In this document: one piece after another, positions 1,700 to 7,982 of the stretch
Numbering within the stretch: position 1 is the stretch's first letter
Layout of the letters: each line of letters starts with the position of its first letter
Assembly (NCBI GenBank): GCA_946613735.1
Contig: CAMOFS010000055.1
Coordinates: forward strand, 1-8,071
Source: an uncultured Lachnospiraceae bacterium
GTDB lineage: Bacteria > Bacillota_A > Clostridia > Lachnospirales > Lachnospiraceae
Direction of reading: 5' to 3'
DNA length: 8,071 bases
Notes under the pieces: model-generated
What the model was told of the DNA's origin: nothing
The model's input: only the letters and a program-made list of their open reading frames with translations
The model's database searches: none
Made by a program: the position numbers and the translations under genes

Positions 1700-3016
1700 A
1701 TGATAAAAGGGTTGCGAAAAAAATTCATTTTGGTGGGAATGCTTTCAGTCATCATAGCAGAGCTTTTGATGATAGGTACTATAGATGCCATGAACTACAA
1801 GAGCACCCTAGATAACATCCGGGGACAGATGGAGATATTGGTGGAGAATGACGGCGATCTGTCTTCATTGCTGGAGAGGGATGGGGATCAGGGGATGGGT
1901 CCCTTCGGACAGGATAAGCCCGAGGAAGGCTCATTACCTCCAAAGGAAGGCTCATTACCTCCGGAGGACAATCCTACGAAAAAGAACTTCGGACACGGAG
2001 GGGGAAGAGGGATAAATGAAGAGACCCCCTTCATGCTGAGGTTCTTTACGGTGACGGTGGATGAGACGGGCCAGGTCACCGGCTGCGACACGACACATAT
2101 CGCCATGGTAGATGATGCCGGGGCTTCGGAATACGGCCGGGCAGTGTGGCCCATAGGAAGACAAAGCGGCTTTTATGATGAATACTATTACAGCAGGACA
2201 GACAGCGGCCTCATCATTTTTTTGGACTGCCGGCCCGATATCACATCCTTTGAATCATTCAGAAACATAAGTATAGTAGTGGGCCTGGTGGGAGCAGTGC
2301 TGGTGCTTTTGATACTGATCCCAATCTCAGGCAGGGTACTGGCCCCTGTGGAGGAAAGCTACAAAAAACAAAAACGGTTCATCACCGATGCCAGCCATGA
2401 GATAAAGACCCCCCTTGCCATTATCTCAGCCGATGCCGAAGTGCTGGAGCTGGATAATGAGGAAAATGAGTGGATCGAAAGCATCAAAAACCAGGTAAAA
2501 AGATTATCCGAGCTTACGGAGAAGCTGGTGTTTTTATCCAGGATGGATGAGGGCGCGTCAAGCTTTGACATGACCGAGCTTGATCTGTCGGAGATCATGT
2601 ATGAGGTGACAAAAAGCTACAAGCCCCTGGCAGAGACCTCCGGGAAAAAGTATATAACCGACATTGAATATGATGTGCTTATCACCGGAGACAAGGCCAA
2701 CCTCACCCAGATGATCACCCTGCTAATTGACAATGCCTTTAAGTATTCCGATGATAAGGGAACCATCAAAGTGAGTCTCAAGAGAAGGGGCAAAAAGAAG
2801 GAGATCACGGTCTACAATACCGTGGATGAGATAGCGCAGGGTGACCTGGGTGTGCTTTTTGAGCGTTTTTACCGGGATGATGCATCCCGAAGCACTAAGA
2901 CCGGGGGACACGGTATAGGTCTTTCGGTGGTGGCCGCCATAGCTGAGGCACATCGTGGGACTGCTACGGCAAGAAGCGAGGACGGCAGATCTGTTACCTT
3001 TACCATATGTATATAG
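1700..3016 (+). CDS. Membrane sensor histidine kinase (VanS-like, HAMP-less)
   Basis: A 438-aa sensor kinase partnered with the upstream regulator. TM1 is about residues 9-28. An extracytoplasmic sensor region of about 155 residues follows, including a Pro/Gly-rich low-complexity part (62-105) and a folded part (about 110-180, with FFTVTVDETG and IIFLDCRPD). TM2 is about 190-209. The phospho-acceptor H233 (DASHEIKTP) comes about 24 residues after TM2, leaving no room for a HAMP domain. The ATPase domain has N345 in the N box (LLIDNAFKYS), an F box FERFYR (387-392) and a G2 box GGHGIGLS (402-409). The canonical DxGxG G1 box is absent; that position reads VYNTVDEI (371-378), a form I associate with clostridial kinases of this type. 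The start is supported by GAGGA at 1686-1690. The ligand is unknown. Confidence 0.94.
   Translation: MIKGLRKKFILVGMLSVIIAELLMIGTIDAMNYKSTLDNIRGQMEILVENDGDLSSLLERDGDQGMGPFGQDKPEEGSLPPKEGSLPPEDNPTKKNFGHGGGRGINEETPFMLRFFTVTVDETGQVTGCDTTHIAMVDDAGASEYGRAVWPIGRQSGFYDEYYYSRTDSGLIIFLDCRPDITSFESFRNISIVVGLVGAVLVLLILIPISGRVLAPVEESYKKQKRFITDASHEIKTPLAIISADAEVLELDNEENEWIESIKNQVKRLSELTEKLVFLSRMDEGASSFDMTELDLSEIMYEVTKSYKPLAETSGKKYITDIEYDVLITGDKANLTQMITLLIDNAFKYSDDKGTIKVSLKRRGKKKEITVYNTVDEIAQGDLGVLFERFYRDDASRSTKTGGHGIGLSVVAAIAEAHRGTATARSEDGRSVTFTICI
1921..1962 (+). repeat. Two tandem 21-bp units inside the kinase sensor region
   Basis: AGGAAGGCTCATTACCTCC occurs at 1923-1941 and again identically at 1944-1962, a 21-bp period. 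It encodes two heptads, EEGSLPP (75-81) and KEGSLPP (82-88), in the extracytoplasmic linker of the histidine kinase. Because the unit is a multiple of three, gain or loss of a copy keeps the frame. The near identity of the units suggests a recent duplication. Confidence 0.85.
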
Positions 3017-3070: not shown

Positions 3071-3099
3071 TTGAAAACGTTACATTTTTTTCATATAAT
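3071..3099 (+). promoter_or_regulatory. Sigma-A-type promoter of the fruK-PTS-symporter operon
   Basis: The -35 TTGAAA (3071-3076) and -10 TATAAT (3094-3099) are separated by exactly 17 bp. Both boxes are at or one base from consensus. Transcription should start near 3106, giving a leader of about 26 nt before the fruK ATG at 3132, with the Shine-Dalgarno AGGGGGAG (3121-3128) inside it. This is the only strong promoter seen upstream of the five-gene run ending at the 7915 terminator. Confidence 0.85.
3072..3085 (+). promoter_or_regulatory. Weak cre-like element over the -35 box
   Basis: TGAAAACGTTACAT resembles the catabolite-responsive element consensus TGWNANCGNTNWCA in its first eleven bases. 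The right arm deviates, as if one base were missing (CGTTACA rather than CGNTNWCA). Overlap with the -35 would fit CcpA-type repression of a sugar operon. The AACGTT core could instead belong to another LacI-family site or be chance. Confidence 0.3.
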
Positions 3100-3131: not shown

Positions 3132-4049
3132 ATGATCTATACAGTGACTTTCAATCCATCACTTGATTATATCGTTTCAGTCGATCATTTTCACCTGGGA
3201 CAGGTCAACCGTACCAGCGAGGAGCTAATGTTTCCCGGTGGTAAGGGGATCAACGTCTCAATGGTTCTTAAGAATCTCGGCATAGACAGTACGGCGCTGG
3301 GCTTTATGGCCGGCTTTACAGGAAATGAGATCGTGCGTCTTTTGGACGAGATGAGTGTTAAAAGTAAGTTTATTACAGTAGATAAAGGTATTTCCCGCAT
3401 TAATGTCAAGCTTAGGAGCGATGAGGAGAGTGAGATCAACGGCATGGGACCTGCCATTGATCACGAACACATCCAAAAGCTGTACAGCCAGTTGGATAGT
3501 CTTAAAAAAGACGACATCCTAGTGATCTCAGGCAGCATACCTTCGGTAATGCCGGAGACCATGTACAGTGACATCATGAAATACCTGTCAGGACGTGGCA
3601 TCAGGATAGTTGTTGATGCCACCGGAGATCTTTTGATGAATGTGCTTTCATATGAGCCGTTTTTGATAAAGCCCAACGACCACGAACTGGGGGAGATCTT
3701 TGGTGTAAAGATCAAGACCAGGGATGATGTTATCCCTTATGCCGAGAAGATGCAGAAAAAAGGTGCGAAAAACGTACTGGTATCCATGGCATCAAAGGGA
3801 GCCATATTAGTGGCGGAGGATGGCAAGGTGTATCAGTCGGATCCGCCCAAGGGTGTGGTTAAAAACTCGGTGGGAGCGGGTGATTCCATGGTGGCAGGCT
3901 TTTTAGCAGGCCTGATCTATGGCAACGGCGACTATGACAGGGCATTTTATACAGGTCTTTGCACCGGAAGTGCGTCCGCCTTTTCGGATGAGATGGCTAC
4001 GGAGGCTGAGGTGAGGAGCCTGTTGGCGCAGATGGGAAAACATTATTGA
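3132..4049 (+). CDS. fruK: 1-phosphofructokinase (PfkB family)
   Basis: A 305-aa cytosolic kinase that converts fructose-1-phosphate plus ATP to fructose-1,6-bisphosphate, the step after fructose-PTS uptake. N-terminal TFNPSLDYI (6-14) and PGGKGINVS (35-43) form the substrate-binding signature. EINGMGP (101-107), KPN (180-182) and NSVGAGDSMVAGF (245-257) follow, with catalytic base D251. Length is normal. ATG 3132 is chosen because AGGGGGAG at 3121-3128 precedes it and the protein then starts MIYTVTFNPS, the usual family start; an in-frame TTG at 3114 would add six residues and bury the RBS. It is the first gene of the operon, 19 nt before EIIB. Tagatose-6-phosphate kinase is the nearest alternative; the EIIB-Fru neighbour favours 1-phosphofructokinase. 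Confidence 0.93.
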   Translation: MIYTVTFNPSLDYIVSVDHFHLGQVNRTSEELMFPGGKGINVSMVLKNLGIDSTALGFMAGFTGNEIVRLLDEMSVKSKFITVDKGISRINVKLRSDEESEINGMGPAIDHEHIQKLYSQLDSLKKDDILVISGSIPSVMPETMYSDIMKYLSGRGIRIVVDATGDLLMNVLSYEPFLIKPNDHELGEIFGVKIKTRDDVIPYAEKMQKKGAKNVLVSMASKGAILVAEDGKVYQSDPPKGVVKNSVGAGDSMVAGFLAGLIYGNGDYDRAFYTGLCTGSASAFSDEMATEAEVRSLLAQMGKHY

Positions 4050-4068: not shown

Positions 4069-4521
4069 ATGGGATCGGAATATGACTACGTGGCGGTGAC
4101 CGCCTGTGACACCGGAATAGCACACACATATATGGCTGCAGAGGCATTAAAGAAGGCTGCCGAGGCGGCAGGGCATACGATAAAGGTGGAGACTATAGGC
4201 TCATCGGGAGCCAAAAATCTGCTCACAGCTGAGGACATAGAGAGTGCAAAGGGGGTCATCATTGCTGCAGATTCCGAGGTGACCATGGAAAGATTTATCG
4301 GCAAGCCGGTGGTTAAAACACCGATAGCCGAAGGTATCGATAAGGCAGAGGAGCTCATTAAAAGCGTTACCAAGGCTCCGGTATATCAGGGAGGCGAGGT
4401 GCAGATGCTACCTGACAGACCGAGGGGAGGCGCAAAGATTGCGGCAGCAATAGTCGCTGCCTGTGGCGTGATAGCTGCAGCGGCATACTATGTATTTGCC
4501 GTAATGGGCTTCAGATTTTGA
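4069..4521 (+). CDS. PTS fructose-type EIIB with C-terminal membrane anchor
   Basis: A 150-aa protein. Residues 5-100 are a fructose-family EIIB domain: VAVTACDTGIAHTYMAAEAL carries the phospho-cysteine C13, followed by IKVETIGSSG and VIIAADSEV. EIIB takes phosphate from EIIA and passes it to sugar held by EIIC. The linker APVYQGGE (103-110) matches the position where FruA-type EIIBC proteins lead into EIIC. Here it runs into one hydrophobic segment (about 121-146, Ala-rich) and stops, so the domain is probably tethered to the membrane with the catalytic part in the cytoplasm. The usual CPTG loop reads CDTG. AGGAGG (4057-4062) lies 6 nt before ATG. Neither EIIA nor EIIC is encoded in this window. 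Identity of the EIIB domain is firm; its partner and function are open. Confidence 0.9.
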   Translation: MGSEYDYVAVTACDTGIAHTYMAAEALKKAAEAAGHTIKVETIGSSGAKNLLTAEDIESAKGVIIAADSEVTMERFIGKPVVKTPIAEGIDKAEELIKSVTKAPVYQGGEVQMLPDRPRGGAKIAAAIVAACGVIAAAAYYVFAVMGFRF

Positions 4522-4542
4522 TTTGATCCAAGAGGTTTTAAA

Positions 4543-4802
4543 ATGAAAGAGTTAGTTATGTTATAGCAGATCCCCAGGGGATACATGCGCGTCCCGCAGG
4601 ACAGTTTGTCAAGGAAGTGGGTTCTTACGCTGATACGAGCATCACCTTGGTTAAGGGTGACAAGGAGGTGGACGCCAAGAGGATACTTTCTGTGATGAGC
4701 CTGGGGGTAAAGCAGGGTGAACAGATCACAGTTAAGTGTGATGGTCCACAGGAGGATGAGGCCGCGGCTAATTTGGAGGAGTTCTTAAAGAGTAATTTAT
4801 AA
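4543..4802 (+). pseudogene. ptsH: Phosphocarrier protein HPr with apparent 1-nt frameshift at codon 4
   Basis: HPr relays phosphate from Enzyme I to EII proteins. AAGAGG (4529-4534 region) and ATG 4543 form a good start, but that frame reads MKELVML and stops at 4564-4566. The rest of HPr is intact in the frame one base back: from 4557, YVIADPQGIHARPAG with phospho-His (H15 if the frame is restored), then VMSLGVKQGE and a normal C-terminus to TAA 4800-4802. The joined protein would be 86 aa, normal for HPr. One missing base in GAGTT|AGTTAT (expected GAGTTTAGTTAT, MKEFSYVIADP) explains the break. No in-frame ATG, GTG or TTG precedes the histidine; a GTG at 4617 would give a 61-aa piece lacking it. 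A sequencing error, a true mutation and recoding remain possible. The Ser46-equivalent position is Arg (residue 47). Confidence 0.88.
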
Positions 4803-4825
4803 TCTTTTCCTTCGGAGGAAGTAAT

Positions 4826-6448
4826 ATGGTCAGATATAAAGGAAAAAGCGTGTTTGCCGGTATAGCTATCGGCAAACTTGCTGTTTATCAAAAAAAAGAG
4901 AATACCGTGCGTCGTGAAAAAGTAGCTGACGTGGAGGCTGAGGTAAAGAGGTGGCAGGCAGCCAAGGAGACAGCAAAGGAGCAGTTGGGTGACCTGTATG
5001 AAAAGGCGCTGACTGAGGTGGGCGCTGCCAATGCAGAGGTTTTCGAGGTACATCAGATGATGCTTGATGACCTTGATTATGTGGAGTCCGTGGAGAATAT
5101 CATTCGTACACAGGAGGTGTGTGCGGAATATGCCGTTGCTACCACGGGTGATAATTTTTCCCAGATGTTTGCAGCCATGGATGACGAGTACATGCGTGGC
5201 AGGGCAGCGGATCTTTTGGATATCTCAGACAGGGTGGTCAGTGTATTGACGGGCGCCGTATCGGGAGGACTTGATGCCACGGAGCCGGTGATCCTTTTGG
5301 CGGATGACCTGGCGCCTTCGGAGACTGTGCAGCTGGACAAATCACTGGTGCTATCCTTTGTGACCCGTCACGGCTCGACCAATTCACATACATCCATTCT
5401 GGCCCGGACAATGAACATCCCGGCCCTTATCGGGATCGACTTCATCGATGATATGAACGGCCATGATGCCATAGTTGATGGTTTTACCGGAGAGCTGATC
5501 TTAGATCCCGACCAGGCTACAGCCGATTCATATGCAGCAAAAAAGGCAGAGCTTTTGGAAAAAGAGCGGATGCTTTTGGAGCTTAAGGGAAAAGAAAATA
5601 TCACTTTAGATGGAAAAAAGGTCAATATATATGCTAATATAGGTAGCGTAGCTGATGTGGCAGAGGTATTGAAAAACGACGCGGGCGGCATAGGACTTTT
5701 CCGCAGTGAGTTTTTGTATCTTGAGTCCGATACCTATCCCACAGAGGAGGAGCAGTTCAAGGCCTATAAGACCGTTGCCGAAAACATGGCAGGTAAAAAG
5801 GTCATCATACGAACCCTTGATATAGGCGCCGACAAGCAGGTGGACTACTTTAATCTGGCCCACGAGGACAACCCGGCCATGGGTTACCGGGCCATCCGTA
5901 TCTGTCTGGACCGTGTGGATATTTTCAAGACGCAGCTTAGGGCACTTTACCGTGCCAGCTACTATGGAAATATAGCCATCATGTTTCCCATGATCATCTC
6001 CGTGGACGAGGTGAGGCGGATCAAGGAGATCGTCTCCGGGGTAAAAGCAGAGCTTACGGAGCAGGGGATCTCCTACGGTGAGGTAGAGCTGGGGATCATG
6101 ATAGAGACTCCGGCAGCCGTATGGATGAGCGAGGAGCTGGCAAAAGAGGTTGACTTTTTCTCCATAGGAACCAACGACCTGACTCAGTACACATTGGCTA
6201 TTGACAGACAAAACCCTGCATTGGATAATATACGTGATGCCCATCATCCCGCCATCTTAAGGTCTATAAGGATGACAGTGGAAAACGGTCACAAAGGCGG
6301 TGCGTGGGTTGGCATATGCGGAGAGTTGGGAGCCGACACCTCGCTTACTGAGGAGTTTTTACGAATGGGAGTTGATGAGTTATCTGTTAGTCCTTCCAGG
6401 GTTCTGGCAGTCCGCGATGCAGTCAGACGCATAGATCTGTCAAAATAG
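4826..6448 (+). CDS. ptsI: PTS Enzyme I (phosphoenolpyruvate-protein phosphotransferase)
   Basis: A 540-aa cytosolic enzyme that takes phosphate from PEP and gives it to HPr. The N-terminal part (about 1-250) carries the HPr-binding helices and the phosphohistidine H188 in GSTNSHTSILART. The C-terminal PEP-binding barrel has GLFRSEFLY (290-298), RTLDIGADK (329-337), IETPAAVWM (426-434), FFSIGTNDLTQYTLAIDR (444-461) and the catalytic cysteine C498 in ICGELGAD. Length is within the usual EI range and no key residue is missing. GGAGGAA (4814-4820) precedes the ATG. It lies 23 nt after ptsH, the common ptsHI order, but here inside a fructose-type operon. The intact EI argues against decay of the whole relay and favours a sequencing error or special decoding in ptsH. 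Confidence 0.96.
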   Translation: MVRYKGKSVFAGIAIGKLAVYQKKENTVRREKVADVEAEVKRWQAAKETAKEQLGDLYEKALTEVGAANAEVFEVHQMMLDDLDYVESVENIIRTQEVCAEYAVATTGDNFSQMFAAMDDEYMRGRAADLLDISDRVVSVLTGAVSGGLDATEPVILLADDLAPSETVQLDKSLVLSFVTRHGSTNSHTSILARTMNIPALIGIDFIDDMNGHDAIVDGFTGELILDPDQATADSYAAKKAELLEKERMLLELKGKENITLDGKKVNIYANIGSVADVAEVLKNDAGGIGLFRSEFLYLESDTYPTEEEQFKAYKTVAENMAGKKVIIRTLDIGADKQVDYFNLAHEDNPAMGYRAIRICLDRVDIFKTQLRALYRASYYGNIAIMFPMIISVDEVRRIKEIVSGVKAELTEQGISYGEVELGIMIETPAAVWMSEELAKEVDFFSIGTNDLTQYTLAIDRQNPALDNIRDAHHPAILRSIRMTVENGHKGGAWVGICGELGADTSLTEEFLRMGVDELSVSPSRVLAVRDAVRRIDLSK

Positions 6449-6487
6449 CATCAAAATCGGATTCCGACAAGGAGGGAGAAGTAAAAA

Positions 6488-7897
6488 ATGAGTGAGGAAA
6501 AGACAACACAGACTACGGAGAAGCTTTCGGCGAAGAATATCATCGGATACGCCCTGGGGGATACCGGCGGAGTGCTGGCATTCGGCGTTATCAGTACATT
6601 TCTTAATGTGTACTACACCGATGTATTTGGTATAGATCCCGCAAAGCTTACGATACTGTTTTTGGTGGCAAGATTATGGGACGCTATCAATGATCCCATG
6701 ATGGGAGCATTTGTAGATTCCAGGAAGCCCAATCCCAAAGGACGCTTCAGACCCTGGGTGTATCGGTTTTCATGGGCAATGATGGTATCTTTGATACTTC
6801 TGTTTTTACCCATCAATGACATCATCCCCAACTTTAACCACTACCTGTTGTATGCCTACATCACATACATCTTTTACGGCATGATGTACACCGGTGTTAA
6901 TATCCCCTACGGCTCCATGGCTACGGTTATGACCCGTGATATCAAGGAGCGCTCCACACTTTCCATGGCTCGTACATTCGGTGCGGGTATCGGACAGATG
7001 GCAGGCTCCGTGATCCTGCCGCTGGTGGTATATTCTACAGCATCTAACGGAGCAAAGTATCTTGACAACCACAAGATGTTTTCAGCAATACTTGTCATCG
7101 TGCTGTTGCAGCTTGTTGCTTATCAGCTCAACTACAGGCTGACAAGGGAGACGGTTATCGCTCCTCCAAAGGAAAAGGGAGATACTGTATTTACAGTGCT
7201 TGGCTCTCTGGTTAAAAACCGCCCCTTTGTTACACTTTCACTGGCATCCATGCTTTTGATCGCCGGCAACATGTACTCCAATACAGCCAACACCTATCTT
7301 TTCAAGAACTACTATGAGGCACCCGGCATGCAGGCGCTTGTTCCCGTGGCTACATACCTGCCCATGGCACTCTTTATGCCGTTTCTTAATAAGCTGGTCT
7401 TAAAGTTCGGAAAAAAGGAGCTTTGTGCGTTCGGAGCATATTTGGCAGCTGCGGTTTATCTGATCATGTATTTTGTAAAGCTGCCCAGTGCGGTTCTGTT
7501 TCTGGCAGGTCTTTTTATTACAGGTATCGGCCTTACCTTCTTTACTATGGAGGTATGGGCACTGGTATCCGACGCCATCGACTACCAGGACAAGCTGACT
7601 CACAAGCGTGAGGAGGGTACGTCCTATGCCATTTTCTCCTTCTTCAGAAAGATGGGACAGACCATAGCAGGTGTCAGCTTCAATGCACTTTTGGCAGGCA
7701 TAGGTTATGTGGCAGCTACCGCCGGAAGCTCTGAGGTAGTAAAGCAGACCACGGAGGTCAACAATGGCATATATACACTGGCGACTCTATTGCCCTTCGT
7801 GATGTACATCATCATGGCTTTGCTTTTGCATTTTGGATACAACCTTGGAAAAGATGAGGTTGTGGCTTTAAATGAGGAGCTTGCTTCAAGGAAATAA
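6488..7897 (+). CDS. GPH-family sugar:cation symporter (MelB-like)
   Basis: A 469-aa membrane protein with about 12 hydrophobic segments, of the glycoside-pentoside-hexuronide:cation symporter family within the MFS. Family marks are YALGDTGG (21-28), RLWDAINDPMMG (62-73), KGRFRPW (84-90) after TM2, YGSM (141-144) and the late loop SDAIDYQDKLTHKREEGTSY (361-380). D65 and D69 align with the Na+-site D55/D59 of E. coli MelB. The positions of MelB sugar residues D19 and D124 are V29 and N138, so melibiose-type binding is unlikely. There is no fused C-terminal EIIA domain as in LacS. AGGAGGG (6470-6476) precedes the ATG. Last gene of the operon, 39 nt after ptsI. The substrate is not determined; a fructose-related sugar is inferred from fruK. 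Confidence 0.9.
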   Translation: MSEEKTTQTTEKLSAKNIIGYALGDTGGVLAFGVISTFLNVYYTDVFGIDPAKLTILFLVARLWDAINDPMMGAFVDSRKPNPKGRFRPWVYRFSWAMMVSLILLFLPINDIIPNFNHYLLYAYITYIFYGMMYTGVNIPYGSMATVMTRDIKERSTLSMARTFGAGIGQMAGSVILPLVVYSTASNGAKYLDNHKMFSAILVIVLLQLVAYQLNYRLTRETVIAPPKEKGDTVFTVLGSLVKNRPFVTLSLASMLLIAGNMYSNTANTYLFKNYYEAPGMQALVPVATYLPMALFMPFLNKLVLKFGKKELCAFGAYLAAAVYLIMYFVKLPSAVLFLAGLFITGIGLTFFTMEVWALVSDAIDYQDKLTHKREEGTSYAIFSFFRKMGQTIAGVSFNALLAGIGYVAATAGSSEVVKQTTEVNNGIYTLATLLPFVMYIIMALLLHFGYNLGKDEVVALNEELASRK

Positions 7898-7914
7898 CAT
7901 CTCTTGCATATTTC

Positions 7915-7943
7915 CCCCGGATCTGTAGGATCCGGGGTTTTTT
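7915..7943 (+). terminator. Strong intrinsic terminator of the sugar operon
   Basis: A 9-bp GC-rich stem, CCCCGGATC (7915-7923) with GATCCGGGG (7929-7937), a 5-nt loop (TGTAG), and a run of six T (7938-7943). It begins 17 nt after the symporter stop. It separates the sugar operon from the CorA-like gene. Confidence 0.93.
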
Positions 7944-7946
7944 AGT

Positions 7947-7975
7947 TTGCCTATGTCAGTAAATAAGAGTATAAT
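7947..7975 (+). promoter_or_regulatory. Sigma-A-type promoter of the CorA-like gene
   Basis: TTGCCT (7947-7952) and TATAAT (7970-7975) are 17 bp apart. It sits directly after the operon terminator. Only 7 nt separate the -10 box from the ATG at 7983, so the predicted transcription start coincides with the start codon and no Shine-Dalgarno fits between. Confidence 0.75.
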
Positions 7976-7982
7976 GTGTTTT

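Follow-up and report, generated by a model that had tools for sequence, protein, structure and literature searches.

What can a fructose-type phosphotransferase system (PTS) still do when it has no permease? The question is raised by contig CAMOFS010000055.1 (assembly GCA_946613735.1) of an uncultured Lachnospiraceae bacterium, which was analyzed over its whole stretch of 8,071 nucleotides (nt), hereafter the window. It encodes 1-phosphofructokinase (FruK), a fructose-type EIIB protein, HPr, enzyme I (EI), and a GPH (melibiose-type) symporter in head to tail orientation with intergenic gaps of 19, 21, 23, and 39 nt, and neither EIIA nor EIIC domains were present in the nine window proteins scanned, bearing out the absence of both domains pointed out in a preliminary description of this DNA. 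The reading preferred here, at a probability of roughly 0.5, is that this fructose PTS no longer transports sugar and that its EIIB domain is now a membrane-tethered regulatory or scaffold protein (EIIB-TM), which a limited set of gut bacteria probably keeps for regulation and not for sugar uptake.

A Fructose-Type Unit Lacking EIIA and EIIC

The unit, on the forward strand as are all features of the window named below, includes fruK (3132-4049; TIGR03828, 330 bits with a cut-off of 292), the EIIB-TM gene (4069-4521; TIGR00829, 108 bits with a cut-off of 76.85), ptsH for HPr (4543-4802), ptsI for EI (4826-6448; TIGR01417, 588 bits), and the symporter gene (6488-7897). The preliminary description had placed the unit at 4069-7897, which holds from EIIB to the symporter, but fruK belongs to the same unit and begins earlier; its grouping of EIIB, HPr, and EI beside a 1-phosphofructokinase was matched by profiles for all of them, except that the HPr frame is broken in the window. 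Compared with a fructose PTS permease, an EIIB of the fructose type was found, EIIA and EIIC were missing from the protein and the operon, and the expected phospho-Cys loop was altered. A promoter-like site preceded fruK (TTGAAA-17-TATAAT, 3071-3099; 11/12 in a consensus scan), with both hexamers preserved in the two relatives G001 and G002 described below, and a terminator-like hairpin with a T run followed the symporter gene (7915-7937). The window contained 13 promoter-like sites compared to 11.5 expected and 15 terminator-like sites compared to 6.2 expected, such that a single site of either kind carries little weight alone. The unit is presumably co-transcribed.

The arrangement was not a contig fault. 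In a scan of genomes, EIIB lay inside a frame of 450-900 amino acids, the size of the fructose permease FruA, in 78 of the best 80 of 568 relatives, and the other two (locus L001 in genome G001 and L023 in G002) each carried EIIB-TM, EI, and the GPH symporter. A relay that lacks its PTS permease, as reported in the preliminary description, is therefore real. Identity to the window was 93% (L001) and 91% (L023) for EI and 100% (L001) and 92% (L023) for the symporter, and the order upstream in L023 was nrdG, a small open reading frame, response regulator (RR), sensor histidine kinase (HK), and fruK as in the window.

Fold, Predicted Membrane Helix, and Altered Loop of EIIB-TM

EIIB-TM is composed of an EIIB domain (residues ~1-106), a linker, and a C-terminal hydrophobic helix (~122-148). 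AlphaFold predicted the EIIB domain well over residues 11-100 (block pLDDT of 86-94), and the domain superposed on the fructose EIIB of Bacillus subtilis (2r48) at 0.8 Å over 102 columns in Foldseek and also matched structure 2r4q; the EIIB fold is thus predicted to be intact. The linker had a pLDDT below 50 and the helix was modeled with low confidence (blocks of 46-53). The hydrophobic helix was present in all five EIIB-TM proteins tested, with the best 19-residue hydropathy lying in it (2.13-2.24; 2.24 in the window), and a membrane-tethered location is predicted for EIIB-TM; the helix sequence differs in genome G409. A possible origin of this helix from EIIC helix 1 was also considered and dropped, as shuffles against 78 FruA proteins gave no signal (P of 0.20 to 0.81, with four control helices giving P of 0.44 to 0.83). 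The alignment of the FruA profile on EIIB-TM went no further than residue 116, short of the helix.

The active-site loop of the window protein reads CDTGIAH (Cys13 codon at 4105-4107) compared to CPTGIAH, CPNGIAH, or CPNGVAH in the FruA proteins. The residue after the phospho-Cys was Pro in 78/78 FruA proteins and Asp in the five EIIB-TM alignment rows that keep the Cys (Asp14 in the window), while the EIIB-TM of G409 has lost the Cys and reads ADTEGVAH. The Asp in place of Pro and the lost Cys speak against ordinary phosphate transfer to sugar, although Cys13 may be phosphorylated at some time.

Rarity, Origin, and Selection of EIIB-TM

A search of a 5.8-billion-protein database found 578 relatives, of which 120 were listed and 18 sequences were examined. 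Among these 18, P0001, P0002, P0003, and P0006 are 148-150 amino acids long with tails alignable to the window EIIB-TM. The EIIB-TM profile was matched in 147/397 genomes of the family of G002 (just nine candidates were scored in some genomes), and among the matches listed, G002 had the sole stand-alone frame covering the whole profile, most others were of FruA size, and some were stand-alone frames of ~110-130 amino acids, a few with stops. On the evidence of these sequences, few members of the family at large carry the EIIB-TM form.

Phylogenetic analysis grouped EIIB-TM in one clade of five rows with support of 100/98 against four FruA rows from the genus and 99/94 in an 86-row tree (the FruA of locus L070, which belongs to the same genome as G006, was left out). 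The EIIB-TM stem was long (0.36) in a tree of 108 columns, and EIIB-TM was not placed inside the FruA of the genus. The gene is an open frame in all four EIIB-TM loci (the window, G001, G002, and G409), with ratios of non-synonymous to synonymous substitution (dN/dS) of 0.09-0.21 in five of six pairs, values that are rough since silent sites are near saturation, and with a dS that was not computable for the sixth pair. Codon positions 1 and 2 were conserved at 0.67-0.81 compared to 0.31-0.42 for position 3, and dN/dS was 0.06-0.08 for EI among the window, G001, and G002 and 0.03-0.08 for the symporter where computable. As judged from these codon patterns, EIIB-TM is under purifying selection, and the single branch, long stem, and low dN/dS make one origin followed by rapid early change and then constraint likely.

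Probable Loss of the Fructose Permease Within the Genus

Eight draft genomes of the genus were compared (G001, G002, G006, G045, G362, G407, G408, and G409). EIIA_2 (PF00359) and FruA were found together in four of them, namely G006, G045, G407, and G408 (in the last split over two contigs), and EIIA_2 was not found in G001, G002, G362, and G409, including the 2.7 Mb draft of G002 that gave zero PF00359 matches and no first-look candidate. The EIIA searches covered the families PF00359 and PF03610. EIIC (PF02378) was identified in six of the eight genomes, with a second match in G006 (C259) and G407 (C86) and none in G001 and G409. The only EIIC of G002 is an EIIC-EAL fusion protein (L089 676-2487), and the similar EIIC protein of G362 (L171 1-1425), which runs off its contig at the C-terminus, is without an EIIA or EIIB match; both proteins are perhaps used as sensors in genomes without a fructose permease.

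The FruA-bearing genomes G006, G045, and G407 maintained the order DeoR-type regulator, fruK, and fruA (EIIABC), continuing with complete ptsH and ptsI genes in G006 and G045, and G408 had the same order over two contigs. The DeoR-type regulator, checked by Pfam in G045 only, was not beside fruK in the variant loci (it was not searched for elsewhere in the variant genomes). FruK was present in 6/8 genomes and was not found in G362 and G409; the window FruK is 84% identical to that of G002, 92% to the piece in G001, and 77-80% to those of the FruA-bearing members, with 79-81% for EI in the latter comparison (one EI partial). The G409 locus reads RR-HK-EIIB-TM-EI with neither fruK nor HPr between, and the G362 locus reads truA-like frame-EI-glpK-GPH, where the labels truA, nrdD, and DhaK were given by reading the sequences and glpK, DhaL, DhaM, and nrdG by NCBIfam. 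The gene order of the preliminary description was accordingly conserved in part: fruK-EIIB-EI-GPH was found in three of the four EIIB-TM loci (in G001 over two contigs), HPr lay between EIIB and EI in only two of the four, one of them broken, and EIIB-TM itself was rare in the family at large. The draft gene content of G001 and G002 would fit a regulatory permease-less PTS.

The proposed mechanism is that the fructose PTS operon of one sub-group of a Lachnospiraceae genus would have lost sugar transport. Compared to the fruK-fruA(EIIA-EIIB-EIIC)-ptsH-ptsI operon of sister species, EIIA and EIIC would have been lost, the DeoR-type regulator would no longer lie by fruK, and the unit would now sit behind a cluster of nrdG and two-component genes. 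The remainder of FruA, presumably descended by domain loss, would be the EIIB domain on a membrane helix, which may bind EI or HPr as PTS partners, or else the adjacent sensor kinase, and report the state of the PTS, i.e., of phosphoenolpyruvate (PEP), no longer passing phosphate to fructose. The symporter would be a co-transcribed neighbor with its own unphosphorylated substrate. A more specific and distinctly speculative version is that EIIB-TM is a membrane PTS adaptor freed from its permease that would sense the EI/HPr (PEP) state, partly without the Cys, and signal to the adjacent HK, giving a direct PTS to two-component link in a Gram-positive.

HPr, EI, and Their Possible Clients

A one-base shift close to the start breaks the HPr frame of the window, as revealed by three-frame translation, HPr alignment, and a PF00381 match on the fragment: the start codon lies at 4543 with the HPr reading frame one base off, and the only stretch that a start codon opens is 4617-4802. 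The break is attributed to a strain-level or sequencing fault because a second public contig encodes an intact HPr (P0241; 98% identity across 95% of the query) that reads through from MKEF. The phosphorelay motifs were found in both proteins, with NSHTS in EI (His codon at 5387-5389) and GIHARPAG in the downstream frame of the broken HPr gene, the His residues of which we take to be the phosphohistidine and the active-site His, respectively. L023 has an intact HPr between EIIB-TM and EI, while the spacing of just 19 nt in L001 leaves no HPr gene between them. At the position presumed to be the regulatory serine (Ser-46), Arg is found in the operon HPr of the variant species and of those bearing FruA (L160, L153, L157, and L023 compared), ruling out Ser-46 loss as a mark of the variant. 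G002 has four HPr-family matches, one of which keeps GFHLRPAG and Ser where the operon HPr has Arg and adjoins genes read as cdaA and ybbR.

EI was present in all eight genomes of the genus, with identities of 55% in G362 and 42-58% in G409, where it is in pieces on two contigs. These two EI proteins had long branches and grouped with the other EI proteins of the genus with weak support (63/1) in a 30-row tree of motif-filtered frames only, from which the N-terminal G409 piece was left out. The EI of G362 keeps the His and the SHTS motif, while the stretch with the active-site His in G409 lies in the gap between contigs.

Two further clients of the relay were considered. P-His-HPr phosphorylates GlpK in other Firmicutes (PMC3146418). 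Of the eight genomes, only G002 was found to encode a DhaM of the PTS-dependent dihydroxyacetone kinase, with DhaL and an incomplete frame read as DhaK next to it. At what we take to be the position of the phosphorylatable His of GlpK, the glpK copies read DPSFFG or DPSYFG (four linked to the symporter) and DPEFFG (three others), and the missing His weakens GlpK as a remaining PTS client.

The GPH Symporter as a Probably Secondary Neighbor

The symporter of 469 amino acids is a GPH:cation symporter (TIGR00792, 294 bits over a cut-off of 231; PF13347; MelB chains by sequence, with chain E at 3e-31) that contains MFS domains only, such that the preliminary description was right in finding no fused EIIA domain; a C-terminal IIA domain of the LacS type was not present. 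An ortholog of at least 76% identity occurred in 7/8 genomes, all except G408, with the copies in G006 and G407 being partial or split. It is directly 3' of glpK in G045, G407, G362, and G409, two of the four with FruA, and adjoins ptsI in just three loci, those of the window, G001, and G002, which have lost the linked glpK (G001 and G002 contain nothing that matches it above 66-67%). The glpK-GPH order of the other genomes indicates that EI and GPH most likely became adjacent in the lineage that these three share, and on this gene order the pairing with the PTS relay looks secondary.

DNA identity between the window at 6280-7980 (EI end, symporter, and terminator) and L001 was 97-100% per 100-column block, compared to just 68% for the gene encoding EIIB and 87% for EI as a whole in the same pair, a jump that is a sign of recent recombination or a chimeric contig.

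Two-Component Neighbors

Upstream of the unit lie an nrdG-type activase gene (96-623; TIGR02491, NCBIfam), a small frame of 93 amino acids between nrdG and the RR (620-901; without a Pfam match, conserved, and also in L023), the RR (964-1635; PF00072 and PF00486), and the HK immediately 5' of fruK (1700-3016; PF00512 and PF02518). The RR was upstream of the unit in all four EIIB-TM loci, and PTS genes were directly behind the HK in 4/4 of these loci and in 0/5 of the other genus genomes; the G001 locus is split between a contig with HK-fruK and another with the fruK end and EIIB-TM, and G408 shows the HK end only. Within the genus, the RR-HK pair itself is not always followed by PTS genes.

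Identity to the three EIIB-TM relatives was 89-94% for the RR and 63-76% for the HK, and the N-terminal half of the HK contains a short in-frame repeat (EEGSLPP/KEGSLPP; window 1920-1970). In G001, RR and HK are separated by an unknown frame of 229 amino acids (L199 2418-3107), while nothing lies between the two genes in the window, G002, and G409. The nrdG-type gene shares 96% identity with that of G002 and only 51-54% with those of G409 and G001, and may have been replaced.

Weighing of Alternative Explanations

The main rival to a regulatory EIIB-TM is a relic in decay, in which the fructose PTS was lost stepwise, EIIB-TM, HPr, and fruK are remnants with little or no function, and a different client, DhaM in G002 for example, accounts for the retention of EI and HPr. 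This is a real possibility, if a less probable one, and it accounts for the graded series in the genus from the FruA operon (G006, G045, G407, and G408) to EIIB-TM with fruK (the window, G001, and G002), then EIIB-TM without Cys, fruK, and local HPr (G409), and EI without fruK, FruA, and local HPr (G362), as well as for DhaL and DhaM in G002 and the broken HPr of the window. However, a useless remnant would be expected to be broken, and the open EIIB-TM frames in all four loci with their low dN/dS (silent sites near saturation), the hydrophobic helix retained in all five proteins tested, and the restriction of DhaM to a single genome argue against decay. Several observations also weigh against the regulatory reading itself. 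All genomes are drafts of untold completeness, and G001 has just 1.3 Mb; fruK was not found in G409 or G362, such that the whole unit may be in the course of being lost; and HPr is broken in the window and missing between EIIB-TM and EI in G001 and G409. The DhaL and DhaM of G002 could alone explain the upkeep of EI and HPr. Compared to EI among the window, G001, and G002, EIIB-TM has a dN 5-7 times higher and a dN/dS 1.2-3.7 times higher, and this faster change also fits weakened constraint. Descent of the helix from FruA gained no support from the shuffles or the FruA profile. The HK adjacency is within one clade and counts as one event, fruK has its own promoter-like site such that co-transcription with the HK is conjectural, and any regulatory partner of EIIB-TM is putative.

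The remaining explanations restore a sugar transport role to the locus or give the symporter a part in it. A complete ordinary fructose PTS with EIIA and EIIC elsewhere in the genome, the plainer alternative of the preliminary description, has in its favor that the genome data come from relatives of the window, but it is contradicted in the near relative G002 as far as the draft tells (zero EIIA_2 matches and EIIC only as EIIC-EAL); with G001, G362, and G409 also without an EIIA_2 match in the families searched, it is highly improbable. Equally improbable is a split permease in which GPH replaced EIIC and tethered EIIB phosphorylates the incoming sugar to give fructose-1-phosphate for FruK. 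It would be in keeping with fruK in three of four EIIB-TM loci (one over two contigs), the promoter- and terminator-like sites bracketing the window unit, and the predicted tethering of EIIB, but a fructose-type EIIA to charge EIIB was not found, Pro-14 is replaced by Asp, G409 lacks the Cys yet has GPH at 92%, and a GPH ortholog of ~80% lies behind glpK in G045, which has FruA. Replacement of EIIC by the symporter was dropped as the leading idea, given the symporter behind glpK in four genomes, two of them with FruA. Direct regulation of the symporter by phospho-EIIB or EIIB-TM, as the PTS does with LacS, is only slightly less unlikely. The shared unit, with adjoining genes in the window, G001, and G002, and the predicted location of both proteins at the membrane speak for it; against it, GPH is without an EIIA domain, follows glpK in four other genomes of the genus, and occurs at 92% in G362, which is not among the genomes matching the EIIB-TM profile. 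The special EIIB-symporter partnership put forward in the preliminary description is thus not supported, given the glpK neighborhood in four genomes and a ptsI neighbor in only three loci, and phospho-EIIB as the acting form is doubtful given the missing EIIA, Asp for Pro-14, and the Cys lost in G409.

Relation to Known Systems and Significance

The unit resembles the fruK-fruA-ptsH-ptsI operon of Lachnospiraceae in the order and identity of fruK, EIIB, HPr, and EI, and differs from it in lacking EIIA, EIIC, and a DeoR-type regulator beside fruK and in that its EIIB stands alone as a small protein, carries a hydrophobic helix, and has Asp following the Cys. Alpha-proteobacteria have a PTS without a permease that is linked to a two-component system (PMC2937029), and such PTSNtr-type systems share an EI and HPr-type relay without a permease and PTS genes beside a two-component system; the end protein is an EIIA there and a membrane-anchored EIIB here, where the EI is of the sugar type (TIGR01417) and the host belongs to the Bacillota. 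LacS/RafP-type symporters carry a fused IIA-Glc domain (PMC2848229) and are likewise non-PTS sugar symporters in a PTS context, while the symporter here has no IIA domain and its PTS link is by position alone. EIIA-Glc is held at the membrane by an N-terminal amphipathic helix, a tether needed for regulating membrane partners (PMC6123446), and is similar in being a soluble-type PTS domain at the membrane, but the domain here is EIIB and its helix is hydrophobic and C-terminal. No title on an EIIB-only, membrane-anchored remnant was found among the open-licence PMC titles listed, and one may still be in print.

One genus thus spans a sugar PTS with a permease to EI without a permease, and the intermediate is a transport domain present as a separate, selected, and apparently membrane-anchored protein. 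A fructose-type EIIB annotation need not imply fructose transport, and the genus series offers a natural experiment on the ways in which a transport PTS may give rise to regulatory branches.

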